Below are positions 6,275-27,703 of a stretch of 32,057 nucleotides of DNA, piece after piece. Below the pieces are notes generated by a model. That model saw nothing but the letters and a program-made list of their open reading frames with translations, had not been told where the DNA came from and ran no database searches. Origin of the DNA: a virus. How positions within the stretch are numbered: the first letter of the stretch is position 1; every line of letters begins with the position of its first letter. The stretch covers positions 1 through 32,057 of IMG/VR virus record IMGVR_UViG_3300025889_000550; one strand, written 5' to 3'. The translations under genes and the position numbers were made by a program.

Positions 6275-6643
6275 TCAGGCTTCAGCGCCCTTGATGATGG
6301 CAAAGTTCAATACCAACGCCTCGGCTGCGGTTGCACCCACATTGGAAAGCGTGATGGTAAATGAACCAGCCGCAACGGCGCTAACGCTTGCGACATAGGT
6401 GCCAGTGGTTGCCCCAGATTGGATTGCCACAACAGGCACATCGTTAATGCCAACGAAAGTGTTGGTCACAACGAAGCTCACTTCAGCACCGCCAGCTAGC
6501 GACGCATCATGAGTGGTGATCTCACCAGCAGGCTTACTAAGCGTAACCCCAGTAGCTTTGCTAGTTTCCTGGGTAACAGCACCGCCTAACCCAGTCGGGT
6601 AGCCGATGGCTTTACCAGCAGTTGCCTCAAAGATAGATGCCAT
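6275..6643 (-). CDS. Capsid decoration-like beta protein
   Basis: This 122-residue protein sits directly downstream of the major capsid gene. It carries the segment GAVTQETSKATGVTLSKPAG, then SFVVTN, GTYVASVSAVAAGSFTITLSNV and a hydrophobic end (ALVLNFAIIKG). The pattern recurs in small proteins next to phage capsid genes and suggests a beta-sandwich displayed on the capsid. A decoration role is inferred from family look and place, not shown. Confidence 0.65.
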   Translation of the reverse strand: MASIFEATAGKAIGYPTGLGGAVTQETSKATGVTLSKPAGEITTHDASLAGGAEVSFVVTNTFVGINDVPVVAIQSGATTGTYVASVSAVAAGSFTITLSNVGATAAEALVLNFAIIKGAEA

Positions 6644-6654
6644 GATTAGTTACC

Positions 6655-7677
6655 TCAGAAGTTGGAAGTAACAGTAGCCCTAACGATGCCGAGGTTCTTA
6701 AGCTCGTACACCTTAGTCCAGTTACCGATTGTGGCAAGTTGAGCTTGTGTCGGGTTAGCAGTACCCACAACCCACTTAGCGCCAACCGGGTGATAGCAGT
6801 AGTGCAGGTCGATTGACATGGCATCACTCTTGGCGAGGATGTCACGATCAGTTTCAGTCTGCATCGCCATTTGCTCACCGCTGGCGATAGCGCCTTGAGT
6901 GAAGAAATACACCGGGTAGTTGGTGCTGGTAGGTGCCAGGTCGTCAGAGACGATGACGCGGAGGCCCATGTAGGTGGGCACTGAATTGTCGCCGCCGTAA
7001 GCGCCAGCAATGCTGCCAGCAAATACAGGAGCGATGCCAGTGGTAGCAACAGTGCCACCGCCACGTGCCTCAGCATTGGTCACGTAATCAATGGCCTTGC
7101 GCTCAACCAAGTCGTAGTACACAGCAGAGTGCATGCCGACAGCGGTGAGCTTGTCGCCTTGATCGCCAAGCAGCGCACGTGCCTTAGCCACCTGACGGGG
7201 GCCAAGAGCAGTTTGCCCAGTCTTGTCAAAAGACAGATCAATAAATGCAGCGCCGGTGTTGGAGGTCAAGCCGCCAAATACACCTTCGAGGCACTTGATC
7301 AGATCCTTCTGCCGTTGGTTGGCCACATAGTCGGCCACCTTGGCACCGATGGCGGCCATCGGGTCAGCACCAGCAGCCAGAGCTGCGAGATCACGAGACT
7401 CGAAGGCACGACCACGGTGCAGGATGACACCGACTTGCTTGTCGGCGGTGATCTTGCCAGGCGTCAGCGAGGTGCTGTCAGACAGCACTTCAAAGTCACC
7501 GGTAAGGTTTGCTTTCCAGAATGGAATGTTGACATAGTCACCGCCCTCGGTTGCATTCAGCTCGGCCATCGGCTGCACCACACCGCTAGCCAAGAAGGCA
7601 TCGCGAAGGGTGGTTTGCTCGATGACGTAAGGCGTGAAAATTTCGGGGATGATGACATCAGAGCGAAGTGTCGCCAT
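6655..7677 (-). CDS. Major capsid protein (HK97 fold)
   Basis: This 340-residue protein follows the scaffold gene and precedes the decoration-like gene. It starts MATLRSDVIIPEIFTPYV, has the E-loop-like region GGDYVNIPFWKANLTGDFEV, the helix RGRAFESRDLAALAAGADPM..., the middle LIKCLEGVFG helix, and the P-domain/A-domain patterns AVGMHSAVYYDLVER and TYMGLRVIVSDDLAP, all typical of HK97-fold capsid proteins of this length. No delta domain or head protease gene is seen; the separate scaffold gene fits that. An AGG lies upstream of the ATG at 7677. Confidence 0.92.
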   Translation of the reverse strand: MATLRSDVIIPEIFTPYVIEQTTLRDAFLASGVVQPMAELNATEGGDYVNIPFWKANLTGDFEVLSDSTSLTPGKITADKQVGVILHRGRAFESRDLAALAAGADPMAAIGAKVADYVANQRQKDLIKCLEGVFGGLTSNTGAAFIDLSFDKTGQTALGPRQVAKARALLGDQGDKLTAVGMHSAVYYDLVERKAIDYVTNAEARGGGTVATTGIAPVFAGSIAGAYGGDNSVPTYMGLRVIVSDDLAPTSTNYPVYFFTQGAIASGEQMAMQTETDRDILAKSDAMSIDLHYCYHPVGAKWVVGTANPTQAQLATIGNWTKVYELKNLGIVRATVTSNF

Positions 7678-16513: not shown

Positions 16514-18550
16514 CTAGCCCTTAGGTTGGTCGTCTAACTGGTAGTACCAGCGGCGCTTGCCGGATGATTCGCGACGTTTGGTCCAACCCAGCTCTTTGAG
16601 GATGGATGCAACCTGCATCTGGTCCACTTTGGTCTGGCGCTCCATCGGCTTTTGTATAGCCTTTGCAAGGATCTCTTCAGAGGTCAATACATCAGCAGAT
16701 CGCCGATCTGTTAAGTAGGTAAGGATAGCTAGCCGCCATGGTGATTCAATCATGTAAGTATCATTTTCCTGCTGCACTGCAAGTTCCATTGCAACTGGCA
16801 AACGATTAGTTTCACCATTTCGATATGCGTGGACAGCAGCGGACCAGATCGCATCGCGCTCCATGAGCAGCATGGCGGTGTTAATTTGATCAACTTGTGT
16901 TTTGGTTGTAGGTATCACCCAGAAGCGACGGTTTCCGGTTTCATCAACCAAGAATCCCGTAGTCTTATTGGTGGTACCAACAATAATGCCACGCCTAGGA
17001 AATGCCTCAACGGCCTTGCCGTATGGCACCCTCAGTAAGTCAATAGCTTGCGAGAGGAATGCCTTTACCTGACCGGCATGTTTGCGGTTAGTGATGTGAT
17101 CTAATTCTGCCCATTCCATAATCCATGAGCGATGCAAAACCATGACATCATCCTTGGTGCTGATGTCACCTAAAGCATCGGAATAGAACGGACCGCCTAA
17201 ACATCCCCAGAAACTAGACTTATAAGCACCTTGATCGCCCATGATTACGCAAGCGGTGTCATGCTTGTAACCAGGGTCAAAAGCACGAGCAACAGCACCA
17301 ATTAGCGTGCGTTTTAGCATCTCGTCGTAGATGGTGGTGCCGTCATCACCTGGCCGGAGATAGGCGGTAGCCAGACCATCGATGTAGGTCGGCTCAACAT
17401 GTCGCTCGCAATGGAGCAGGTATTCGGTGACAGGGTTGTAGGGATTTTCATTGGCTACCTGCACAAGGCAATCAATGGCTAGTTCTTTGCCGACCTTGTA
17501 ACCCATTTCGGCCAGCTTGAGGTAAAAACGATCAGCGCCATCAATGGCCTTTTCTTTGATCTCGATCTGCTGGGTGAAGACGTTGTAGCGAATCTCATCG
17601 GCTTGACTACGCAGCAGCGCTAGCAGCTCTGCAGTTTCCAGCTTTTCGGGTTTGGTGATGATGGGCGGCTTGCTATCCCCATTTGCCACGCTGCGGCTCG
17701 GTTCTTGCCGTTGCGACCGCCACCCATCCTTCTTGGCCATATCGCCAAGGGTGCCAAGGCTGATGCCGGACTTTTTGAAACTCTTCCACTTGCGCTGGCA
17801 GTCGCTGGGCTTGTGCTTGTTGGACTGCGCCGACCAGTGTTCCCAGTCGCCTAGAAGGCTGTCATCGCCGACGCTATGGAGCGCCATGCCAACTGCTAAC
17901 CAGTCGTCGTAATCATCAGCGCGACTAGCCGACAGGGCCTCTAGGTATGACCGCGCCCTAGCTGCATCATCAGATGCCACCAGCAATGGTGCCGGCTGTG
18001 CCACCGGCTTGAGCATTTTCTCTATGAGGCAAAGCGGCGCTTCTGCTAGGTCGAGGTCTTCGGGGCTGTATTTGGTGACCCAGTGATAGCCGGTAGTGGT
18101 TGGGTGCGCACCAGCTACAACAGATTGGCAACCAGTCCAGCGGAGCTCCACTTGCTCGGGTTTGCCTTCGGAGTCGGTGACACCGGTCTTGTATTTGCGT
18201 GTGGCAATGTCTGGCCAATACTGCTCTGGTACGCGGTAAATGACCTGAAACCTGCCATCACGACCACTGGTAACGGTCCACGACCGCGGCAATGACGACA
18301 TGGGACAACCCCAGTCGCGCAGGATGGTGCTGGCGCTGCGGCCATCGTGATCAAGAAACAACAGACCACCGGATGGAACACCGCAGCACACGCCAATGGC
18401 TTTGGCGCTGCCAGCTTCTAGCTCAACCTGCAGGCCGGCCTTGTCGAGTGGCCGCTCCTGCCATTTGGTTTGGTATGGCCGCTTCTGATCATCGACAGCA
18501 ACATATCCCCACCCATCGGGTAGGCGTGCAAGCTCTTCGGATAGGGTCAT
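16514..18550 (-). CDS. Primase-polymerase / VirE-type helicase fusion
   Basis: This 678-residue replication protein has three parts. Residues about 1-180 are a bifunctional primase/polymerase N-terminal (Prim-Pol) domain with the metal-binding LLFLDHDG (Asp67, Asp69). Residues about 198-278 are a PriCT-2-type domain (YLEALSASRADDYDDWLAVG; WKSFKKSGISLGTLGDMAKK). Residues about 390-560 are a VirE-family P-loop ATPase with GDQGAYKSS at 438-446, IMEWAELD at 477-484 and GTTNKTTGFLVDETGNRRFW. The Walker A has Ala where Gly is usual before Tyr-Lys, but Lys and Ser are kept. It would unwind and prime the phage origin. Its ATG overlaps the stop of the small RHH gene. Confidence 0.92.
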   Translation of the reverse strand: MTLSEELARLPDGWGYVAVDDQKRPYQTKWQERPLDKAGLQVELEAGSAKAIGVCCGVPSGGLLFLDHDGRSASTILRDWGCPMSSLPRSWTVTSGRDGRFQVIYRVPEQYWPDIATRKYKTGVTDSEGKPEQVELRWTGCQSVVAGAHPTTTGYHWVTKYSPEDLDLAEAPLCLIEKMLKPVAQPAPLLVASDDAARARSYLEALSASRADDYDDWLAVGMALHSVGDDSLLGDWEHWSAQSNKHKPSDCQRKWKSFKKSGISLGTLGDMAKKDGWRSQRQEPSRSVANGDSKPPIITKPEKLETAELLALLRSQADEIRYNVFTQQIEIKEKAIDGADRFYLKLAEMGYKVGKELAIDCLVQVANENPYNPVTEYLLHCERHVEPTYIDGLATAYLRPGDDGTTIYDEMLKRTLIGAVARAFDPGYKHDTACVIMGDQGAYKSSFWGCLGGPFYSDALGDISTKDDVMVLHRSWIMEWAELDHITNRKHAGQVKAFLSQAIDLLRVPYGKAVEAFPRRGIIVGTTNKTTGFLVDETGNRRFWVIPTTKTQVDQINTAMLLMERDAIWSAAVHAYRNGETNRLPVAMELAVQQENDTYMIESPWRLAILTYLTDRRSADVLTSEEILAKAIQKPMERQTKVDQMQVASILKELGWTKRRESSGKRRWYYQLDDQPKG

Positions 18551-18768: not shown

Positions 18769-21036
18769 ATGGCTGCCATGACCTACCAAGACTTCCTTGC
18801 TTCAAAGTCCACTGCCTGCGCACCTGCAGGATTTGACCCGACTAGCTTCACAGCGCCGCTGTTTCCATTTCAGCGGGACATTGTGACAATGGCCTGCCGC
18901 GTTGGCAGGTTCTGCATCTGGGCTGATTGCGGCATGGGTAAAACCGCCATGCAGTTGGAGTGGGCGCATCAAGTGCATCAGAGCACTGGCGGCAATGTGC
19001 TGGTACTAGCGCCGCTTGCTGTTGCCCACCAGACAGTGCGCGAGGGTGCCAAGTTTGATATTGCCTGCAGCTTTGCGGCGACGCAATCTGAGGTGAAGCC
19101 TGGCATCACGATCACCAACTACGAGAAGCTCAGCCATTTTGATCCTGCCAGCTTCCAAGGAGTAGTGCTTGACGAGAGCAGCATCCTCAAGGCATACACC
19201 GGCAAGATCCGCAACCAGATCATCTTTAGTTTTAGCCAGACGCCATTTCGGCTGGCTTGTTCAGCGACACCAGCACCTAATGACCACATGGAGCTAGGCA
19301 ACCACGCTGAGTTTATTGGCGTGATGACTAGGACTGAGATGCTGGCTATGTTCTTCGTGCATGACGGTGGCGACACTGCCAAGTGGCGCATCAAAGGGCA
19401 CGCCAAAAGCAAGTTCTGGGAATGGGTATGCAGTTGGGCGGTAACCATCCGCAAACCATCAGACCTTGGCTATGAGGATGGCGACTTCATCCTGCCGGAG
19501 CTGCAGATCAGTGACTGCACGGTGGAAACACCACGCGAAGCAGTAGCAGATGATGCTGGCCAGATGGCGCTGTTTGCTATGGAAGCGCGGACGCTCAACG
19601 ATCAACGCCAGGTGCGTAAGGCATCGCTGCAGATGCGGGTTGATGCTGCTGCGGCACTAGCCAACAGCAACGGTGAGCAGTGGTTGGTGTGGTGCAATCT
19701 GAACGATGAATCCAAAGCGCTTGCTGCTGCTATTGATGGCGCCGTTGAGGTGTCAGGTAGCGATAGCGATGACCACAAGCGGCAATCAGCTATCGACTTT
19801 CAAGATGGCAAGATCCGCGTATTGGTTAGCAAGCCCAGCATCTTTGGCTTTGGGCTCAACTTTCAAAGTTGCCATAATGTTGCATTTGTTGGGCTAAGCC
19901 ACAGCTACGAGGCTTTCTATCAAGCCATCCGTAGGTGTTGGCGATTTGGCCAGCAGCAACCAGTTAATGCGCACATTATCTACGACGTAGGCGAAGGTCG
20001 CGTCATTGAAAACATTCGCCGCAAAGAAGCGGACAGCATCGCCATGGCTGAATCAATGGTTGTCATCATGAAACAACAAACAATGGAACAGCTCAAGAAG
20101 ATCCAACGTCAAGTTGCACCGCACATTACAGAGCATCAGTCAGGTGACAACTGGGATATGTACATGGGCGACTGCGTTGAGAGTATCAAGCAGCTCGACT
20201 CAGATAGCATCCACTACAGCATCTTTAGCCCGCCATTTGCGTCGCTTTACACCTACTCCAATAGCGACCGCGACATGGGCAATAGCCGCACTGAGCAGGA
20301 GTTCTTTGATCACTTTGCGTTTCTAGCAACAGAGCTGCATCGGGTGATGATGCCTGGCCGACTGATCAGTTTTCATTGCATGAATCTGCCCAGTAGCAAA
20401 GAGCGTGATGGATTCATTGGCGTCAAGGACTTCCGTGGTGACATGCTGCGGATATTCCAATCTGCGGGCTTTGTATTCCATAGCGAGGTCTGCATCTGGA
20501 AAGATCCGGTTACCGCGATGCAGCGCACTAAGGCCATTGGGTTGCTGCATAAGCAAGTGCGCAAGGACTCAGCGCTTAGCCGTCAGGGCATCCCGGATTA
20601 TTTGGTAACGGTGCGCAAGCTGGGCGAGAATACTGAGCCAGTTGCTGGGCCGTTTACTGAGTTTGCAGGCGAGAATCCACCACCTAAAAGTGGCGATGCC
20701 ATCAAGGATTCAATTAACATCTGGCAGCGGTATGCCAGCCCGGTATGGATGGACATCAACCCATCGGATACGTTGCAGTACCGCAGCGCAAGGGCTAATG
20801 AGGATGAGCGGCACATTTGCCCGCTGCAGTTAGAGGTGATCCGCCGTGGGATGCAGCTATGGAGCAATCCAGGCGATTTGGTGCTTAGTCCGTTTGCTGG
20901 TATCGGCAGCGAGGGCTACGTCAGCCTGCAGATGCAGCGCCGGTTTGTTGGATTTGAGCTGAAGCCCAGCTACTTCAATTGCGCCGCCAAGAACCTGAGC
21001 ATGGTCGAGTCGCATAAGCAGGGTGAGCTGGTATGA
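18769..21036 (+). CDS. SNF2-like helicase fused to beta-class DNA methyltransferase
   Basis: This single 755-residue chain has two enzymes. Residues about 30-430 are a superfamily 2 helicase/translocase: GMGKT at 55-59, VVLDESS at 132-138, SAT at 165-167, and QAIRRCWRFGQ (motif VI) at 385-395. Residues about 460-745 are an SAM-dependent amino-methyltransferase with motif IV SPPF at 487-490, a motif X-like RHICPLQLEVIRR at 681-693, motif I LSPFAGIGS at 706-714 and motif II FELKPSY. The IV-before-I order is the beta class; SPP(F/Y) is more often seen in N4-cytosine than N6-adenine enzymes. No nuclease domain is present. It may modify phage DNA while moving along it. Its stop overlaps the next ATG. 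AAGG lies before the start. Confidence 0.9.
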   Translation: MAAMTYQDFLASKSTACAPAGFDPTSFTAPLFPFQRDIVTMACRVGRFCIWADCGMGKTAMQLEWAHQVHQSTGGNVLVLAPLAVAHQTVREGAKFDIACSFAATQSEVKPGITITNYEKLSHFDPASFQGVVLDESSILKAYTGKIRNQIIFSFSQTPFRLACSATPAPNDHMELGNHAEFIGVMTRTEMLAMFFVHDGGDTAKWRIKGHAKSKFWEWVCSWAVTIRKPSDLGYEDGDFILPELQISDCTVETPREAVADDAGQMALFAMEARTLNDQRQVRKASLQMRVDAAAALANSNGEQWLVWCNLNDESKALAAAIDGAVEVSGSDSDDHKRQSAIDFQDGKIRVLVSKPSIFGFGLNFQSCHNVAFVGLSHSYEAFYQAIRRCWRFGQQQPVNAHIIYDVGEGRVIENIRRKEADSIAMAESMVVIMKQQTMEQLKKIQRQVAPHITEHQSGDNWDMYMGDCVESIKQLDSDSIHYSIFSPPFASLYTYSNSDRDMGNSRTEQEFFDHFAFLATELHRVMMPGRLISFHCMNLPSSKERDGFIGVKDFRGDMLRIFQSAGFVFHSEVCIWKDPVTAMQRTKAIGLLHKQVRKDSALSRQGIPDYLVTVRKLGENTEPVAGPFTEFAGENPPPKSGDAIKDSINIWQRYASPVWMDINPSDTLQYRSARANEDERHICPLQLEVIRRGMQLWSNPGDLVLSPFAGIGSEGYVSLQMQRRFVGFELKPSYFNCAAKNLSMVESHKQGELV

Positions 21037-22379
21037 ACCTCCGCCCTTACCAAATCCAGCTCATCACCGACATCCGCCTGCAATACCAGCTAGGCCACCG
21101 CAAGGTGCTGGCAGTGCTGCCCACTGGTGCTGGCAAGACCGTCTGCTTTAGCCACATCGCTCAAGCTGCTGCCCGCAAAGGCAACCGCGTGCTTATTGCG
21201 GTGCACCGGCAGGAGCTACTGGATCAAGCGTGCCGCGCACTACCCATGCCACATGGTGTGATCGCCGCTAGCCGCGCCATGGACCTATCTGCAGCGGTGC
21301 AGGTGGCCAGTGTGCAGACCTTGGCTCGCAGGCTCCACAAGCTGCCGCGTGACTTCTTCCAACTGGTGATCATCGACGAGGCGCACCACAGCAATGCGAA
21401 ATCTTGGGCTCAGACATTGGAGCACTTCCAATCTGCGCACCTGCTGGGTGTCACTGCTACACCGATCAGGCTCGATGGCCGCGGCCTTGGCGAGCACTAC
21501 CAGATCATGGTGGAAGGTCCCAGCGCTGCATGGCTAACCGATAACGGCTTCCTAGCTAGCGCACGAGTGCTGGCGCCACCAGGGTTTGATACCACCGGCT
21601 TGCGTAAGCGGATGGGTGACTTTGACACCCGCGAGGCTGAGCATCGGGTCGGCACCATCATGGGTGACTGCCTTAGCCACTACCGCAAGCACCTAGATGG
21701 CCAAACGGCAATTGCGTTCTGCTGCTCAGTGGCACATGCGGAGGCAGTGGCAAGGCTATTCATGGGTGCCGGCATCCCAGCCGCCAGCATCGACGGCAGC
21801 ATGACCAGCGAGCAACGCCGTGACCTGCTGCAGGCGCTAGGCACCGGAAGGATTAAGGTGCTCACCTCCTGCGCACTTATAGGTGAAGGCGTGGATGTCC
21901 CCAGCGTTGGTGGCTGCATCCTGCTTAGGCCTACCGCTAGCACCAGCTTGCACCTGCAGATGATCGGCCGATGCCTTAGGCCATCACCGGGCAAGGCCGC
22001 TGCGGTGGTGCTCGATCATGTCGGCAACACCTTGCGGCTCGGCCACCACCTAGAACCACGTGAATGGACGCTAGACGGCCTGGCCAAGCGCGACCGCTCC
22101 GCCGCGCCATCGGTGAAGGTGTGTCCTAACTGCTTCGCTGCAATGGCCAGCCAGGCCAAGCAGTGCGGTGAATGCGGCCATACGTTTGCGGCTGAGGCAC
22201 GCGAGCTGCAGCAGGTGGAGGGTGAGCTGGTTGAGCTTCAGAGGCAGCAGGCTAAGCGGGAGCAAGGTGGGGCGCAAACGCTTGAGCAGTTGCGGCAGCT
22301 AGCGCAGCAACGAGGATATAAAGTTGGCTGGGCCGAACGCGTGTATCAGGCAAGGTTGGCCAAGCGGTATGGCGTCTGA
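21033..22379 (+). CDS. DEAH-box helicase with C-terminal zinc ribbon
   Basis: This 448-residue superfamily 2 helicase has LRPYQIQLITDI (Q-like motif), PTGAGKT at 30-36, IIDEAHH (DEAH at 115-118), VTATP at 140-144, TSCALIGEGVDVPSV (motif V region) and QMIGRCLRP at 309-317 (motif VI). A treble-clef/zinc ribbon follows, CPNC at 364-367 and CGEC at 378-381, then a Gln/Glu-rich helix. This is the SSL2/UvsW-like arrangement used in recombination-dependent replication or fork repair. It is coupled by ATGA to the helicase-methyltransferase gene and overlaps the nuclease gene by 11 bp. Confidence 0.9.
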   Translation: MNLRPYQIQLITDIRLQYQLGHRKVLAVLPTGAGKTVCFSHIAQAAARKGNRVLIAVHRQELLDQACRALPMPHGVIAASRAMDLSAAVQVASVQTLARRLHKLPRDFFQLVIIDEAHHSNAKSWAQTLEHFQSAHLLGVTATPIRLDGRGLGEHYQIMVEGPSAAWLTDNGFLASARVLAPPGFDTTGLRKRMGDFDTREAEHRVGTIMGDCLSHYRKHLDGQTAIAFCCSVAHAEAVARLFMGAGIPAASIDGSMTSEQRRDLLQALGTGRIKVLTSCALIGEGVDVPSVGGCILLRPTASTSLHLQMIGRCLRPSPGKAAAVVLDHVGNTLRLGHHLEPREWTLDGLAKRDRSAAPSVKVCPNCFAAMASQAKQCGECGHTFAAEARELQQVEGELVELQRQQAKREQGGAQTLEQLRQLAQQRGYKVGWAERVYQARLAKRYGV

Positions 22380-22746
22380 GCAATCCATCCAGCAACACAT
22401 CCGCCTGACCTGCGGCGCGGGTAACACCAGGCTGTTCCGCAATAACACCGGAGTGCTGCGCGATTACCACGGCAGGCCGGTGAGCTTCGGACTTGCTAAA
22501 GGCAGCGCTGACCTGATCGGCTGGGCTAGCCGCGTCATCACCCCGGAGATGGTCGGCCAGCGTGTTGCGGTGTTTACCAGCATCGAAGTCAAGACCGCTA
22601 GCGGCAGGCTGCGGCCAGAACAGAAGCAGTGGCTGGATGCAGTGCAAGCAGCAGGTGGCATCGCTGGTGTGGCGCGGTCGGTTGATGATGCAAATGCACT
22701 ACTTATCAATGGAATCCATTGCGGCGCAACGGATCTGACCCTGTAG
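22369..22746 (+). CDS. VRR-NUC domain nuclease
   Basis: The product is 125 residues from the ATG at 22369 (MASEQSIQQHIRL). The PD-(D/E)xK core is visible: GLAKGSADLIGW (Asp48), SIEVKTASGRL (Glu73, Lys75), then PEQKQWLDAVQAAGG and GVARSVDDA. VRR-NUC proteins act on flaps, junctions or as stand-alone phage nucleases. Being last of three overlapping genes after two helicases suggests joint action on branched or unmodified DNA. The longer upstream frame was rejected because it lies inside the helicase gene. Confidence 0.9.
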   Translation: MASEQSIQQHIRLTCGAGNTRLFRNNTGVLRDYHGRPVSFGLAKGSADLIGWASRVITPEMVGQRVAVFTSIEVKTASGRLRPEQKQWLDAVQAAGGIAGVARSVDDANALLINGIHCGATDLTL

Positions 22747-22797
22747 TACATCCGCTCACCCCTGATTGTGACCCGATGTAACGCGAGGCAGTGTGAC

Positions 22798-22825
22798 ACC
22801 TGTGGAAATCGACTTTTTCACAGGT
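22798..22825 (+). repeat. Hairpin downstream of the VRR-NUC gene
   Basis: Arms ACCTGTGGAAA and TTTTCACAGGT pair over 11 positions (one G-T wobble) around a 6 nt loop. No T run follows, so a standard intrinsic terminator is doubtful; an RNA processing site or a protein-binding dyad is possible. Confidence 0.6.
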
Positions 22826-22901
22826 ACATGCGGATACATTCCCTGAGATCCCAGCCGCCGCAATGTATTTCAGCAATAGTGCATCTGATCTAGCCCGTCA
22901 G

Positions 22902-22926
22902 TTTTGGCATCCAAGTGATACCAAAA
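22902..22926. promoter_or_regulatory. Imperfect dyad TTTTGG..CCAAAA
   Basis: TTTTGG, one mismatch, ATC, a 5 nt centre, GAT, one mismatch, CCAAAA. The half-site TTGGCATC recurs inverted at 23033-23040. This looks like a repressor or initiator site cluster; the binding protein is not identified. Confidence 0.45.
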
Positions 22927-23138
22927 TCAGCGGCCCTTGTGCCAGTTGGCGCCAGAACCGTGTGCAAGGAGTGTGCCAGTTCTTGCTTATGGTGACACTT
23001 ACTTATTGGCACGCGCCCGCCAAGATCCCAGTGATGCCAACGGGTTTGGCCGTTCTTGGTACCCCTGTATCAGTTGGCGGTGCGTGACATCGGGTGACGT
23101 TATGGCGCACGCTGATAGGGCACCACGCACCACACGTC

Positions 23139-23321
23139 ATGGGCGTCATCGCCGACACGCTCCGCGCCACCCTCCGGGACATGGCCCAGAGCGATGCCCG
23201 TCTTTACCGCGGGCTGGCCACCGAGCTGGGCACCACGCCCGCTCAGGCGGCACTCCCCACGGAGGAGATCGCAGCCGCCATCGCGCTCCTTGAGGCGCAT
23301 GGCTACACGGTCACTCGTTGA
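23139..23321 (+). CDS. Small hypothetical protein, GC-rich block
   Basis: The product is 60 residues from the ATG at 23139 (MGVIADTLRATLRDMAQSDA...). A GTG at 23094 would add 15 residues. It is helical with LPTEEIAAAIALLEAHGYTV at the end. No family recognised. It opens a stretch visibly richer in G and C than its flanks. Confidence 0.6.
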   Translation: MGVIADTLRATLRDMAQSDARLYRGLATELGTTPAQAALPTEEIAAAIALLEAHGYTVTR

Positions 23322-23383
23322 CCATCGCGGGCGCCACACGGCGCCCCATCACCTGACTCACGCACCGCGCCACACGCCACGCC

Positions 23384-23626
23384 ATGGACCACGCCACCCC
23401 CACTGACACCGACGCCCTGATGGCAGAGGTGGACGCCCTGCTGGAGCAGGTCGCCGCCACCGACGCCCGGCTGGACGCACTGCTCGACGGCTGGACGCCA
23501 CGGCCCGCCACGGCCCTGCGCCGGCTCCAGCGCACCGCTCGGCACACGGCCCGGTTGTCGGCCCTAGTGGAGCGCCAGCAGGCGGCCCTGGCCGCCCAGC
23601 TGGACGCCATGGAGCAGGACGCCTGA
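23384..23626 (+). CDS. Small coiled-coil protein, GC-rich block
   Basis: This 80-residue protein is one long Ala/Leu/Asp/Arg helix (ALMAEVDALLEQVAATDARL; then ARLSALVERQQAALAAQLDA), probably a coiled-coil. The third codon positions are strongly G or C. No family recognised; possible accessory or regulatory partner. Confidence 0.7.
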   Translation: MDHATPTDTDALMAEVDALLEQVAATDARLDALLDGWTPRPATALRRLQRTARHTARLSALVERQQAALAAQLDAMEQDA

Positions 23627-23667
23627 GCGGTTCCCGTCCGCCACCTCGTCACACTGACTGAACACCG

Positions 23668-23832
23668 ATGACTGACTACGACATGCACGACCTGATCCGG
23701 GATCAACTGACCGGGATCTACGTCGATCTCACCGCTCTGGGACTGATGCCGGAGCAGTACGACCAGCGACTGACTCAGGCGCTCCAGCTGCTGCGCGACG
23801 CCCGAGCCCTGCTGGAGGAGTGCCATGCCTGA
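23668..23832 (+). CDS. Small hypothetical protein, GC-rich block
   Basis: This 54-residue acidic, helical protein (MTDYDMHDLIRDQLTGIYVD..., ending LLRDARALLEECHA) has a stop overlapping the start of the zinc-finger gene by 8 bp. The composition and length are those of many small cyanophage or cyanobacterial accessory proteins. Function unknown. Confidence 0.65.
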   Translation: MTDYDMHDLIRDQLTGIYVDLTALGLMPEQYDQRLTQALQLLRDARALLEECHA

Positions 23833-24091
23833 CACCAGCGCCGCCCGCACCCGTCGCTACCGACTGCGCCTGCGTGGCCTGCCTGATCCCGATGCACCGC
23901 AGCCCTGCGCCACCTGCGGCCGGCAGGTGCGATCGAAGCGCACGGCGCCGCTCTGCTCGCATTGCTGGAAGCGATCACCAGCAGGACGTGAGCGGAACCG
24001 ATTGCGCATGGCATCAACGCGCGCGCAGCACTTGCTAGCGGCAAAGCCAGATCGCGTGCCAGGTGCCGGCCATCAGCAGCGGCCCGAGTAG
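23825..24091 (+). CDS. Small zinc-finger protein
   Basis: This 88-residue basic protein has two CxxC pairs, CATC and CSHC, separated by 15 residues (CATCGRQVRSKRTAPLCSHC), followed by a basic helix WKRSPAGRERNRLRMAS. An N-terminal RTRRYRLRLRG also suggests nucleic acid binding. It could be a transcription or replication regulator; no named family was recognised. The C-terminal part overlaps a broken minus-strand frame. Confidence 0.7.
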   Translation: MPDTSAARTRRYRLRLRGLPDPDAPQPCATCGRQVRSKRTAPLCSHCWKRSPAGRERNRLRMASTRAQHLLAAKPDRVPGAGHQQRPE

Positions 24092-24170
24092 ACCCTGACC
24101 ACAGCGCAACGCGCAGCTCATGCTCGCGGATGGCATGGTTGATGAGGTGCTGCACGCGGTGGTCATCCAT
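24035..24170 (-). pseudogene. Possible frameshifted small membrane-protein gene
   Basis: On the minus strand an ATG at 24170 reads MDDHRVQHLINHAIREHELR, then VALWSG. At a GGG run the sensible reading moves to another frame, which gives LLGPLLMAGTWHAIWLCR and a stop at 24035. Removing one G would join the two into a 44-residue helix plus membrane segment. The 3' part overlaps the zinc-finger gene on the other strand. It may also be chance. Confidence 0.35.
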
Positions 24171-24203
24171 GCCGGCAGGGTAGCGACTGGATATGTGACG
24201 GAT

Positions 24204-24219
24204 TGTTGCCGATGCAACA
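24204..24219. repeat. Short perfect hairpin
   Basis: TGTTGC, loop CGAT, GCAACA. It sits 10 nt upstream of a promoter-like TTGACC and within the gene-poor 24,092-24,297 stretch; a possible operator or RNA end. Confidence 0.4.
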
Positions 24220-24229
24220 GGGACTAGGG

Positions 24230-24257
24230 TTGACCACGGCGGATCAGGGTGTAGGAT
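24230..24257 (+). promoter_or_regulatory. Sigma-70-like promoter before the small membrane genes
   Basis: TTGACC (24230-24235), 16 nt, TAGGAT (24252-24257). The gene at 24298 starts 40 nt downstream. This is one of the best consensus matches in the window and would drive the coupled genes from 24298 onward. Confidence 0.5.
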
Positions 24258-24297
24258 ATGCGCAAGCCGGACGACCCGGCACCCCAACCCGAGAGCC

Positions 24298-24480
24298 ATG
24301 ACTACAACCCTCGCCTTAATCCTCGCCCTGCTGCTACTGCCGCTGCTAGTGCTGCTGTGGGCTACCGAGAGCACCGAGCAACGCACCAAGCGGCTGCACA
24401 GCTACGGCTGGAGCCAACGCCGCATTGCTGATCACCTGCATATCACCCGTTACCGCGTCCGCGTGGCGCTTGCATCATGA
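24298..24480 (+). CDS. Membrane-anchored helix-turn-helix mini-protein
   Basis: The 60 residues are a single hydrophobic segment (about 4-21: TLALILALLLLPLLVLLW) followed by an HTH-like part, RTKRLHSYGWSQRRIADHLH, then ITRYRVRVALAS. The WSQRRIADHL-ITRYRVR pattern is that of resolvase/transposase-type HTH motifs. A membrane-tethered DNA-binding protein of this size is odd. Its stop overlaps the next ATG. Function unknown. Confidence 0.75.
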   Translation: MTTTLALILALLLLPLLVLLWATESTEQRTKRLHSYGWSQRRIADHLHITRYRVRVALAS

Positions 24481-24608
24481 TCGCTAACCCTTGGATCAAC
24501 CGCATCACTGTATTGGTGGTAATGGTCGCCATCTATGCCGCTGGTTACGCCGGTGGCCGCGACCAAGCCATTCTTGCCCATCAACAACAACTTACGTGCG
24601 TCAAATGA
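24477..24608 (+). CDS. Small membrane protein
   Basis: This 43-residue protein has one transmembrane segment (ITVLVVMVAIYAAGYAGG) and a short polar tail ending CVK. It starts in an ATGA overlap with the HTH mini-protein and ends in an ATGA overlap with the next gene, which supports reality. It may be a spanin-like or holin-like peptide, or simply an accessory protein; nothing decides. Confidence 0.65.
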   Translation: MIANPWINRITVLVVMVAIYAAGYAGGRDQAILAHQQQLTCVK

Positions 24609-24805
24609 GCGACTCTGACATCTACTGGACATTCGTTACCGCTGGCAAATTCGGCGGCAGCTTCTTTCAAGCACTGGGTAATGCAGGACTTGCTGCAGAC
24701 CCTGCTAACAAGCGCCTCATCTTAAATACATGGCCGAGGATGGTTGCCACCTATGGCGTCACCAGCCGGCTGCATCGTGAACTGCGTTATGGGGTGACAG
24801 CATGA
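24605..24805 (+). CDS. Hypothetical protein
   Basis: The product is 66 residues from the ATG at 24605 (MSDSDIYWTFVTAGKFGGSF...). Aromatic-rich start and a helical C-terminus (SRLHRELRYGV). It overlaps both neighbours by 4 bp. No family recognised; its placement before the exonuclease gene suggests the same transcript. Confidence 0.7.
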   Translation: MSDSDIYWTFVTAGKFGGSFFQALGNAGLAADPANKRLILNTWPRMVATYGVTSRLHRELRYGVTA

Positions 24806-25590
24806 CCAGCAACGCTGACTACCACGCCGATCCAGCCATCAGCGCTAGCCACCTCCATGCGGTTGCTGCTAGCCCCTACCACTACTGGAGCCGCTTTATC
24901 AACCCAGATCGTCCGCCATCAGTGCAGACGGCAGCGATGAAGCTCGGCAGCTTGACCCATTGCGCTGTGCTCGAACCCGACGAGCTTGCCAGCCGTTATG
25001 GCATTGCACCAGATCGCCGCACTAATGCAGGTAAGGCTGCTGTTGCTGCAATGGAAGCTGCTGGCATTGAAGCTGTCACTGCACCAGAAATGGAGCAGGC
25101 GATGGCAATGGCCGCCAGCGTCCGCAGCCATCAAGCTGCTGCAACATTGCTGCGTGACGGTAAGGCTGAGCAGAGCTTCTGGTTTGATGATATTGCTACT
25201 GGTCTGCGGTGCAAATGCCGCCCGGACTGGTACACCGGCAGCACCATCGTGGACCTTAAGACCACGGTTGATGCAAGTCCGAAAGGATTTGCCAAGTCGG
25301 TTGCGCAATGGCGGTATCACGTCCAGCAGTCGCATTACCTTGCCGGCACCTTTGCCGAGCGGTTTGTGTTTATTGCAGTGGAAAAGTCCTACCCGTATGC
25401 CGTTGGTGTGTACGAGTTAGATGCTGATGCCGTGCAATTTGGCGATTACGAACGCCGCAACAACCTGCAGACAATTGCCGACTGCCGCGCCATCTCCGAA
25501 TGGCCTGGCTATGGCAACATCATTCAACCGCTGAGCCTGCCTAAATGGGCTTTGCAAACTTCGTCATCTATTACTTCGGAGGATTTCTAA
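24802..25590 (+). CDS. RecE-like PD-(D/E)xK exonuclease (DUF3799-like)
   Basis: This 262-residue protein has family landmarks ISASHLHAVAASPYHYW near the N-terminus, MKLGSLTHCAVLEP (His53), LRCKCRPDWYTGSTIVDLKT (Asp142, Asp151, Lys153) and RYHVQQSHYLAGT. Such enzymes resect double-stranded ends to give 3' tails for an annealing protein. The Bet-type annealing protein is two genes downstream, so the pair forms a recombination system. The gene ends with a GGAGG that serves the next start. Confidence 0.9.
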   Translation: MTSNADYHADPAISASHLHAVAASPYHYWSRFINPDRPPSVQTAAMKLGSLTHCAVLEPDELASRYGIAPDRRTNAGKAAVAAMEAAGIEAVTAPEMEQAMAMAASVRSHQAAATLLRDGKAEQSFWFDDIATGLRCKCRPDWYTGSTIVDLKTTVDASPKGFAKSVAQWRYHVQQSHYLAGTFAERFVFIAVEKSYPYAVGVYELDADAVQFGDYERRNNLQTIADCRAISEWPGYGNIIQPLSLPKWALQTSSSITSEDF

Positions 25591-25592
25591 TT

Positions 25593-26420
25593 GTGGAAAC
25601 AAAACTGGTCACAATGACGCCTGAATGGGCAGAGCAATTGTTAACACTCAATGTTCACAACAGAAAGCTAAGCAAAAATACCATTCTCTTTTACGAAAAT
25701 CTTATTAACAGGGGACAATGGAAAACTACTCATCAAGGTATTGCAGTTGATTGGAACAATGTCTTGCAAGACGGCCAGCACAGGCTTCATGCAATAGTCA
25801 AAAGCGGGCAGTCAGTTCAAATTCTGCTTTCTACAAAAGTTGATCCTTCTAATTACGAAGCTATTGATGGAGGTAAAAAACGAAGCGCGGCTGACACGAT
25901 AGGGCTTTTAGGCGCAAAAAATACAACACAAATAGCGGCAGCAATAAGAGCATATTTGCTTTATCAAAGATATCCCGCGTACGTATGGGTCGGTAATAAT
26001 TTTAATGCTATTACCATATCAGACATTAAATTATTTTATGAATCCGCGCCGGATTCAATTAATGAATTAGCGGCTAGCGCCCGTAAAGCTTATAAAAAGT
26101 TTAGGCCTTTAAACGCTAGCGCTTTAATTTGCTTTCTTTTGCTTGCCAAATCATCCGATACGGACTATAAGGCACTTGAGTTTGTAGGCAGGTTGGGCAG
26201 TGGAGAAAATCTAAATACTTATGATCCTATTTTAGTGTATAGAAGTTTTTTGTCAAACAATAAAGCTTCTAGAGGATTACAGTTTTATGTCGCCTCAAAC
26301 ATTAAAATGTTTAACAAATGGCTTAACGGGGATCGTCTTACGCAGTTTAGAGCGCCTGAGTTCCCCCCAATGCCAACTATTGCATTACCAGTCACATCAT
26401 TTGCGAGATCACCTCAATGA
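25593..26420 (+). CDS. ParB-like-fold phage protein of unknown function, AT-rich
   Basis: The product is 275 residues from a GTG at 25593, chosen because GGAGG lies 10 nt upstream. It has TPEWAEQLLTLNVHNRKLSK, NLINRGQWKTTHQGIAV and NVLQDGQHRLHAIVKSGQSV, then IDGGKKRSAADTI. The DGQHRL segment resembles the ParB/sulfiredoxin motif (GxxRxxA). This family recurs in phages without an assigned function. The gene is clearly richer in A and T than both neighbours and uses codons such as AAA, ATT and TTA, suggesting recent transfer. It sits between exonuclease and Bet genes. Confidence 0.75.
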   Translation: METKLVTMTPEWAEQLLTLNVHNRKLSKNTILFYENLINRGQWKTTHQGIAVDWNNVLQDGQHRLHAIVKSGQSVQILLSTKVDPSNYEAIDGGKKRSAADTIGLLGAKNTTQIAAAIRAYLLYQRYPAYVWVGNNFNAITISDIKLFYESAPDSINELAASARKAYKKFRPLNASALICFLLLAKSSDTDYKALEFVGRLGSGENLNTYDPILVYRSFLSNNKASRGLQFYVASNIKMFNKWLNGDRLTQFRAPEFPPMPTIALPVTSFARSPQ

Positions 26421-27160
26421 CCACCTCATCACTAGCCCTCTGGACACCAGAGCAAACCCAACTGATCAGCACCACCATTGCACCAGGTTGCAGTAATGAT
26501 GAGCTACGGCTATTTGCCTATGCCTGCCAGCGCACGGGGTTAGATCCGTTTAGCAAGCAGATATACGCCATCAAGCGTGGCGGCAAGATGACCATCCAAG
26601 CCGGCATTGACGGCCTGCGCAGCATTGCTGAGCGCACCGGCCAACTCGATGGCTCTGAGACGCTCTGGTGCGGCGAAGATGGCCAATGGACTGATGTATG
26701 GCTTGGCAGCAAACCGCCTGCCGCGGCCAAAACCACCATCTGGCGCAAAGGTGCCGGCCATCCATTCACAGGAGTGGCGCGGTTTGCGGATTACAACGCT
26801 GGCCAAGGGCTGTGGTCAAAGATGGGCGCCACCATGATTGCCAAGTGCTCCGAGGCACTAGCGCTGCGCAAGGCATTCCCTGCAGACCTCAGCGGTGTCT
26901 ACAGCACCGATGAGATGGATCAGGCAGTGGAGCCGGTGACAGTGACCAGCGTTGCCACTGCTGGCGATGATAAGGTATTCACCGCCGGCAAGGCTGCTAT
27001 TGCTAAGGCAACCACTATGGAAGCATTGGCCAAGGTGACCGAGCGCATGGAGGCCCGCAAAGGTGACCTATCCACTGAGCAACAGGAAACTTTACTAGCG
27101 CTTGCATTGGAAAAAGAAGCCAGTTTCGCCACTGCTGAAGAGGATCCGTTTGATGATTGA
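26417..27160 (+). CDS. bet: Bet-type single-strand annealing protein
   Basis: In this 247-residue protein the N-terminal 170 residues match the Bet family: ELRLFAYACQRTGLDPFSKQ, IYAIKRGGKMTIQAGIDGLR, SIAERTGQLDG, ATMIAKCSEALALRKAFPAD and LSGVYSTDEM. The Thr/Ala-rich C-terminal part is variable. It would anneal single strands made by the exonuclease upstream. The 3' end overlaps the HTH gene by 8 bp and the 5' end overlaps the preceding gene by 4 bp. Confidence 0.93.
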   Translation: MTTSSLALWTPEQTQLISTTIAPGCSNDELRLFAYACQRTGLDPFSKQIYAIKRGGKMTIQAGIDGLRSIAERTGQLDGSETLWCGEDGQWTDVWLGSKPPAAAKTTIWRKGAGHPFTGVARFADYNAGQGLWSKMGATMIAKCSEALALRKAFPADLSGVYSTDEMDQAVEPVTVTSVATAGDDKVFTAGKAAIAKATTMEALAKVTERMEARKGDLSTEQQETLLALALEKEASFATAEEDPFDD

Positions 27161-27362
27161 GCCGTATCTAACCACTGACCAGCTAGCTGCACGGTGGGGT
27201 TTAAGCCCTGCCACGATCAAAGGCCAACGAGCACGAGGCATTGGCCCAGTGTATTACACCATTCCACGCAACAGCGCACCACGCGGCGCATCACGTGTCC
27301 GTTACCCGCTAGCACAAGTGCTGGCATTTGAAGAATCCAATTCCATTACACCACTGACATGA
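27153..27362 (+). CDS. Small helix-turn-helix (HTH_17/excisionase-like) protein
   Basis: The product is 69 residues from the ATG at 27153 (MIEPYLTTDQLAARWGLSPA). The pattern LTTDQLAARWGLSPATIKGQ, a wing with YYTIPRNSAPRG, then VRYPLAQVLAFEE is that of MerR-like/excisionase-like winged HTH proteins. It could be a transcription regulator or an excisionase; no integrase is visible, so the latter is unproven. Coupled to bet and ssb. Confidence 0.8.
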   Translation: MIEPYLTTDQLAARWGLSPATIKGQRARGIGPVYYTIPRNSAPRGASRVRYPLAQVLAFEESNSITPLT

Positions 27363-27703
27363 GTCTCTACGCAACCGGCATTATTCGTATCATCACTGAA
27401 CCATCGCTGCGCACCTTTGATACCGGCACCATGGTCGCTAACTTTGCTGGCGGCATTATGGAAGGCAAAGATAAGCAAGGTAACTACATCAACAATGCAA
27501 TAGACATTGAAATCTGGGGCAAGTCTGCTGAAGTAGTAGTTGATCGCTGCAAAAAGGGTGATTGCATTATCGTTAGCGGTAATGTCAAACGCCAGGAGTG
27601 GGCAGATAAAACCACAGGTGATAAGCGTAGCAAGCATGTGCTAAGCGTCCAGCGGTTTGAATTCTTACCGCGCACTACACCAACAGAGGAGGTTGCCTTT
27701 TGA
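27359..27703 (+). CDS. ssb: Single-stranded DNA-binding protein
   Basis: This 114-residue OB-fold protein has YATGIIRIITEPSLRTFDTG, NFAGGIMEGKDKQG, IDIEIWGKSAEVVVDRCKKG and DCIIVSGNVKRQEW, typical SSB landmarks. The C-terminus ends PTEEVAF, short but acidic-hydrophobic in the way of partner-binding tails. It would protect single strands in replication and recombination. Overlaps both neighbours by 4 bp. Confidence 0.9.
   Translation: MSLYATGIIRIITEPSLRTFDTGTMVANFAGGIMEGKDKQGNYINNAIDIEIWGKSAEVVVDRCKKGDCIIVSGNVKRQEWADKTTGDKRSKHVLSVQRFEFLPRTTPTEEVAF

Follow-up and report, generated by a model that had tools for sequence, protein, structure and literature searches.

Three overlapping genes of a putative cyanophage are very probably two known phage modules that adjoin

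Do three overlapping genes in a viral genome encode one modification-plus-nuclease system, or do they bring together two units that are already known from phages? This question is raised by the IMG/VR virus record IMGVR_UViG_3300025889_000550, a single record of 32,057 bp that was analyzed over its whole length and is referred to below as the window. A translocase fused to a methyltransferase (the fusion), a second superfamily 2 (SF2) helicase (helicase 2) and a VRR-NUC nuclease follow each other on its plus strand, and a preliminary description had put this trio forward as the best candidate in the window for an undescribed system. We consider it very probable that the trio represents two known phage modules that adjoin and not a new modification-plus-nuclease system. 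The two modules are probably co-transcribed, in agreement with the operon that had been proposed. The three genes are arranged as follows.

18769..20103, plus strand: Snf2/Rad54-type SF2 translocase domain, N-terminus of the fusion, residues ~1-445 (Pfam Helicase_C and ResIII; SsoRad54 1z63 profile; AlphaFold model)
20104..21036, plus strand: beta-class N4/N6 DNA methyltransferase domain, C-terminus of the fusion (Pfam N6_N4_Mtase; 2zie and 8s9n profiles)
21033..22379, plus strand: helicase 2, RadD-like SF2 helicase with a C-terminal zinc ribbon, C-x2-C-x10-C-x2-C (Pfam; NCBIfam RadD; PDB 6jde)
22369..22746, plus strand: VRR-NUC (PD-(D/E)xK) nuclease, probable Holliday-junction resolvase (Pfam VRR_NUC; phrog_5702; AlphaFold model)

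All three reading frames were recovered at these positions with scores well above chance, and both overlaps, one of 4 bp and one of 11 bp, are confirmed: the fusion and helicase 2 share ATGA (21033-21036), while helicase 2 and the nuclease share 22369-22379, which holds the ATG start of the nuclease. The fusion probably starts at the ATG at 18778 rather than at 18769, because many relatives, including that of Synechococcus phage S-CBS3, start there. A longer open reading frame (ORF) beginning with TTG at 22324 is unlikely to mark the true start of the nuclease.

The distribution of the three genes among other phages bears directly on the question. The loci compared are contig fragments; absences refer to loci with the stated room or to whole records, some of which may be incomplete, and the counts are of loci rather than of independent events, with close relatives standing for one lineage. 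Among the close relatives of the fusion (n = 80, at least 90% identity), 55 loci have room, defined as at least 4 kb downstream, and helicase 2 and VRR-NUC are present in every one of them. The trio is thus a fixed arrangement within this cyanophage lineage. The conserved co-occurrence that had been suggested as a check therefore holds for close relatives, but it fails for distant fusions and for loci collected by their helicase 2 or VRR-NUC genes.

Neither helicase 2 nor VRR-NUC was found at any of the 17 loci with room that carry distant fused homologues. The helicase and the methyltransferase are next to each other in each of the 38 distant loci. Split pairs resembling those of phage S-LBS1 have both helicase 2 and VRR-NUC in 9 of 31 cases, mostly at a distance of several kb, either upstream or on the opposite strand. 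Fifteen reference phage genomes with the helicase-methyltransferase were searched, and 11 gave no VRR-NUC match; S-LBS1, S-H1 and XX1924 exceed the curated cut-off for this family and snusmum6-2 is sub-threshold. S-CBS3, Ramsey, S-LBS1, GMA1, vir525 and Dulem virus 39 carry the helicase and methyltransferase either as neighboring genes or as one fused gene, and the fused gene is annotated as 'DNA helicase/methylase' in Sakai and Cerasum (mycobacterial and Arthrobacter phages). Conversely, S-2L, PPpW-3, D1024 and Alexa combine an SF2 helicase with VRR-NUC and lack the fusion.

The same separation appears from the side of the nuclease. VRR-NUC loci with room upstream contain helicase 2 in 55/55 cases but the methyltransferase in only 30/55, and helicase 2 loci contain VRR-NUC in 58/58 cases but the methyltransferase in 28/66. 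After removal of duplicates, 159 helicase 2 loci comprised 92 with an upstream methyltransferase (69 of them fused; the rest are divergent split genes or lie on truncated contigs), 52 that lack one and 15 that were too short to judge. The 52 distinct loci without such a methyltransferase have at least 2.8 kb of upstream sequence, and VRR-NUC is retained in all 52. Among 18 whole records searched, 15 contain no full-length helicase-methyltransferase anywhere. The two modules, helicase-methyltransferase and helicase 2-VRR-NUC, are inherited independently of each other.

These counts bear on the proposal that the trio is a modification-plus-cleavage machine, in which phage DNA would be marked by the fusion, and DNA of the host or of competitors that lacks the mark would be degraded by VRR-NUC with helicase 2 as its motor. 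The overlap of the genes and the complete retention of all three in the 55 close relatives favor such a machine. However, a nuclease restrained by methylation would be harmful or pointless in the 52 loci where it lacks the methyltransferase, and its persistence there and in 15 long records is at odds with a restriction-modification pair, whose nuclease should not outlast the methyltransferase. Its absence beside the 17 distant fusions and the structure selectivity of VRR-NUC domains, one of which (psNUC) leaves linear duplex uncut (PMC4103454), argue in the same direction. We therefore reject a cognate nuclease on the co-occurrence counts and regard the single machine as very improbable; helicase-methyltransferase without nuclease in 17/17 distant fused loci and in 11/15 reference genomes contradicts the view of the trio as one system. 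The earlier proposal for the nuclease itself is upheld in one half, since its fold and recombination neighbors point to branched DNA, and fails in the other, that it is cognate to the modifier.

The first of the two modules is the fusion, a protein of 755 residues (18769-21036). It matches Pfam N6_N4_Mtase (E = 1.3e-13, residues 483-740), Helicase_C (5.8e-8) and ResIII (5e-6) as well as the phrog_16 DNA helicase family (2.4e-78). Its N-terminal half has a sequence-profile match to SsoRad54 (1z63) and carries the Snf2-type motifs GMGKT, DESS and QAIRRCWRFGQ; the AlphaFold model resembles INO80/ISWI ATPases (Z 28-32), with residues 24-438 superposing on the INO80 ATPase at Z 32.2 and 3.2 A over 375 residues. 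In the C-terminal half SPPF (motif IV) precedes SPFAGIGS (motif I), which is the beta order, and the closest profile match is TTHA0409 (2zie, E = 5e-20), with the cytosine-N4 methyltransferase 8s9n at E = 1.9e-9. The fusion accordingly has a Snf2-clade SF2 ATPase core and, in the same polypeptide, a methyltransferase whose motifs I and IV are intact, as expected of the non-DarB branch of the phage methylase-helicase dyads. The SPP(F/Y) signature is commoner among enzymes that form N4-methylcytosine (m4C), although class alone does not settle the base; because of this signature, N4-cytosine is a more likely target than N6-adenine.

Most motifs of the trio are kept in roughly 90-99% of homologues. 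SPPF occurs in 190/190 homologues with a readable motif IV, and DESS, SPPF and FAGIGS are invariant or almost so in 27 diverse fused homologues. This conservation, together with that of the catalytic residues of VRR-NUC, suggests that all three proteins of the trio have been retained as active enzymes. The preliminary description was thus accurate on the intact motifs of the trio, and its three gene identities are borne out by Pfam, profile and fold comparisons.

We propose that the fusion acts as a self-modification unit, in which a Snf2-type double-stranded DNA translocase would move along replicating phage DNA while the attached beta-class methyltransferase methylates a specific motif. Such methylation would most likely shield the phage DNA from host restriction, which makes the counter-defence role offered earlier plausible for the methyltransferase. 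Methylase-Snf2 coupling in phage counter-restriction has a precedent (PMC5512222), and the coupling of Snf2 with beta-class methyltransferases is widespread in phages; a literature search found no characterized phage fusion of this kind. Alternatively, the fusion could be mainly a replication or repair remodeller whose methylation marks parental or new strands for the control of timing or packaging rather than for counter-restriction. Its position in an early replication module beside genes for a primase, beta clamp, exonuclease VIII and single-strand DNA-binding protein (SSB) is in line with this, as is the proximity of distant homologues to sliding clamp, RecA or SSB genes. Unlike a core replication factor, however, the fusion is dispensable, with unrelated cargo occupying its slot in about one third of the distinct helicase 2 loci, and we regard this alternative as rather unlikely.

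The second module begins with helicase 2 (448 residues; Pfam ResIII 4.6e-31, Helicase_C 2.9e-16), which shows the motifs GAGKT, DEAH, TAT and QMIGRCLR and a zinc ribbon of the form CPNC-x10-CGEC. The closest solved helicase by sequence is RadD (PDB 6jde, E = 4e-29). Helicase 2 scores 131.3 bits against the 720 bits set for RadD equivalogs (NCBIfam NF053632) and is therefore termed RadD-like only. In phage S-H1 (locus L241, 6001-7356), homology to helicase 2 begins ~480 bp before the annotated start, and the GenBank gene (annotated 6484-7359) looks truncated.

The nuclease belongs to the VRR-NUC family (PF08774), with a Pfam match of E = 2.8e-10 (40.7 bits, curated cut-off 23.8) and the PD-(D/E)xK residues E4, D48, E73-x-K75 and Q85, of which E4, D48, E73 and K75 are invariant. 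Profile searches of PDB sequences gave only ribosomal S19 matches, judged to be spurious, and structure comparison was therefore needed. The AlphaFold model, with a predicted local distance difference test (pLDDT) score of 87, is most similar to 4qbn (Z 10.0), 4qbo (9.8) and 4qbl (8.7), and the protein falls into phrog_5702, a Holliday junction resolvase family. The VRR-NUC domains of stNUC, saNUC and psNUC, which are standalone domains from phages and bacteria, dimerize and cut four-way junctions (PMC4103454). The window nuclease is probably a Holliday-junction resolvase on the strength of its modelled fold, and it would be expected to cleave junctions likewise. In S-CBS3, where the fusion is 84% identical and helicase 2 and VRR-NUC are lacking, one gene among those for recombination is annotated as a RusA-like resolvase, which fits VRR-NUC as a resolvase and not as a partner of the methyltransferase.

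The surroundings of helicase 2 and VRR-NUC in the window include the following genes.

16514..18550, minus strand: primase/helicase with PriCT_2 and VapE-like domains (Pfam), the divergent neighbor and upstream border of the helicase 2 cargo slot
24802..25590, plus strand: exonuclease VIII (RecE)-like exonuclease (phrog_412, 5.7e-86), one of the recombination genes that surround helicase 2 and the nuclease
26417..27160, plus strand: RecT/Bet-like single-strand annealing protein (phrog_2780, 1.7e-62; TIGR01913 bet_lambda above cut-off)
27359..27703, plus strand: single-strand DNA-binding protein (phrog_44, 3.9e-15)

We propose that the RadD-like helicase and the VRR-NUC resolvase, together with the RecE-like exonuclease, RecT and SSB, would process branched recombination and replication intermediates ahead of packaging. 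The PADLOC models for type IV restriction (mREase_IV, 5.8e-38) and PbeA (1e-22) match helicase 2 and could instead suggest that the pair is an anti-host or superinfection-exclusion nuclease. These matches, however, are confined to the core common to SF2 helicases in general, VRR-NUC has no PADLOC match, and exonuclease and RecT genes accompany the pair in all 55 VRR-NUC loci with room downstream, so that we hold an exclusion function to be improbable. The locus was not filed as a defence system, since the PADLOC matches are to generic methyltransferase and helicase cores.

Several observations weigh against the view of two modules that merely adjoin. The closest cyanophage relatives always keep all three genes together, and the junction between the fusion and helicase 2 is nearly always within 6 bp in them. 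Helicase 2 lies far under the RadD equivalog cut-off, its exact role here is one that we infer, and E. coli RadD needs RecA (PMC8887467). The comparison of palindrome avoidance between fusion-bearing and fusion-lacking phages gave only a signal that is confounded by relatedness: CTCGAG, GTCGAC and CAGCTG seemed less avoided with the fusion, but 56 palindromes were tested, the label shuffling ignores relatedness, and CTCGAG counts clump by lineage, being zero in about half of the fusion loci and zero in the window. Given lineage-clumped counts, 56 palindromes and uncorrected kinship, we claim no methylated motif from this comparison. A functional link that is confined to this one lineage, such as the steering of resolvase cuts by methylation of forks or junctions, would explain the invariant adjacency there, although we give it little credence. 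The two-module reading remains preferred, and it corrects the call of a new system: genes that overlap closely within one lineage turned out to belong to two modules that can be separated.

In relatives that lack the fusion, other cargo lies between the primase and helicase 2, namely DUF3440/PAPS-reductase-like genes, SF1 helicases or HNH endonucleases. DUF3440 PAPS-reductase-like genes are often found in this slot (loci L168, 5172-7799; L205, 5280-7802; L184, 5151-6470), and some have a ParB-like neighbor and could be read as IbrA/IbrB-like; they are possible alternative DNA-modification or counter-defence genes. In cyanophages the slot thus alternates modification-related genes with helicases and HNH genes, and it is a possible place to seek counter-restriction genes. 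One of the 15 whole records without a full-length helicase-methyltransferase (L133, IMGVR_UViG_3300032233_001117) has at 16731-16811 a 27-residue match (67%) to the N-terminus of the fusion, which may be left over from loss of the fusion or mark the boundary of a cargo swap. C5-cytosine methyltransferases, an N4/N6 methyltransferase or PAPS-reductase-like genes occupy a second slot, which lies between helicase 2 and VRR-NUC; more than 250 bp are inserted there in 34/85 and 32/52 relatives, and the 11-bp overlap is therefore not conserved. At locus L051 (12401-13435) a partial copy of the N-terminal ~37 residues of VRR-NUC lies upstream of PAPS-reductase-like cargo, with a VRR-NUC match downstream, which suggests that cargo was inserted by recombination at the nuclease start.

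The window is classed as a siphovirus-like cyanophage because it resembles Synechococcus phages KBS-S-2A and S-CBS3 in nucleotide sequence, and a cyanobacterial host is presumed from these phage relatives. Its left part encodes tail, major head, scaffolding, head morphogenesis and terminase proteins, a sliding clamp and the PriCT_2/VapE primase-helicase on the minus strand; its right part encodes the trio, the exonuclease VIII-like gene, the RecT/Bet-like annealing protein, SSB and a sigma factor on the plus strand, and an endolysin on the minus strand. From VRR-NUC to the exonuclease, ~2 kb of sequence (22747-24801) contain small ORFs only, among them a minus-strand ORF of 204 residues (23775-24389) without a PHROG match. 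Between the exonuclease and RecT, a gene of 291 residues (25545-26420) matches phrog_5931 (function unknown, 3.4e-55) and had just 5 tblastn matches in the first 240 loci. No tRNA and no Rfam family were found in the window.

The combination had been put forward as undescribed, but the annotation of S-LBS1 (MG271909; PMC6157547) shows identical gene content and order: an opposite-strand primase, SF2 helicase, methylase, second SF2 helicase, VRR-NUC, annealing protein and SSB. Unlike the window, S-LBS1 has two overlapping genes for the helicase and the methyltransferase (41% and 48% identical to the window domains), as well as an extra gene between helicase 2 and VRR-NUC; its authors place the second helicase in DNA repair (PMC6157547). 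S-CBS3 gp40 (NC_015465) shares the full-length fusion and differs in its recombination genes, as described above. The window nuclease shares with stNUC, saNUC and psNUC (PDB 4QBO, 4QBN and 4QBL), its top three structural matches, a standalone VRR-NUC fold of ~125 residues, a likeness of fold only at ~17-19% sequence identity, and helicase 2 is shorter than E. coli RadD (6JDE), at 448 versus 586 residues, with 131 bits against the 720-bit cut-off.

Methylase-Snf2 coupling is likewise an established class: Snf2 ATPases are widely coupled to phage methyltransferases in one polypeptide or in neighboring genes, and translocation-coupled modification against restriction has been proposed as the role of this dyad (PMC5512222). 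In its archetype, P1 DarB, which protects phage DNA in cis, the methyltransferase is coupled to a SWI2/SNF2 ATPase as it is in the window (PMC5512222). DarB-type proteins, however, are large virion proteins with LPD36 and a gamma-class (NPPY/F) methyltransferase N-terminal to the helicase, whereas the fusion has 755 residues, a beta-class (SPPF) methyltransferase at its C-terminus and no extra domains seen. The class of its methyltransferase and the order of its domains exclude the fusion from the DarB-type polyvalent proteins; by analogy the fusion may nevertheless work like a methylase-helicase dyad, with methylation coupled to translocation.

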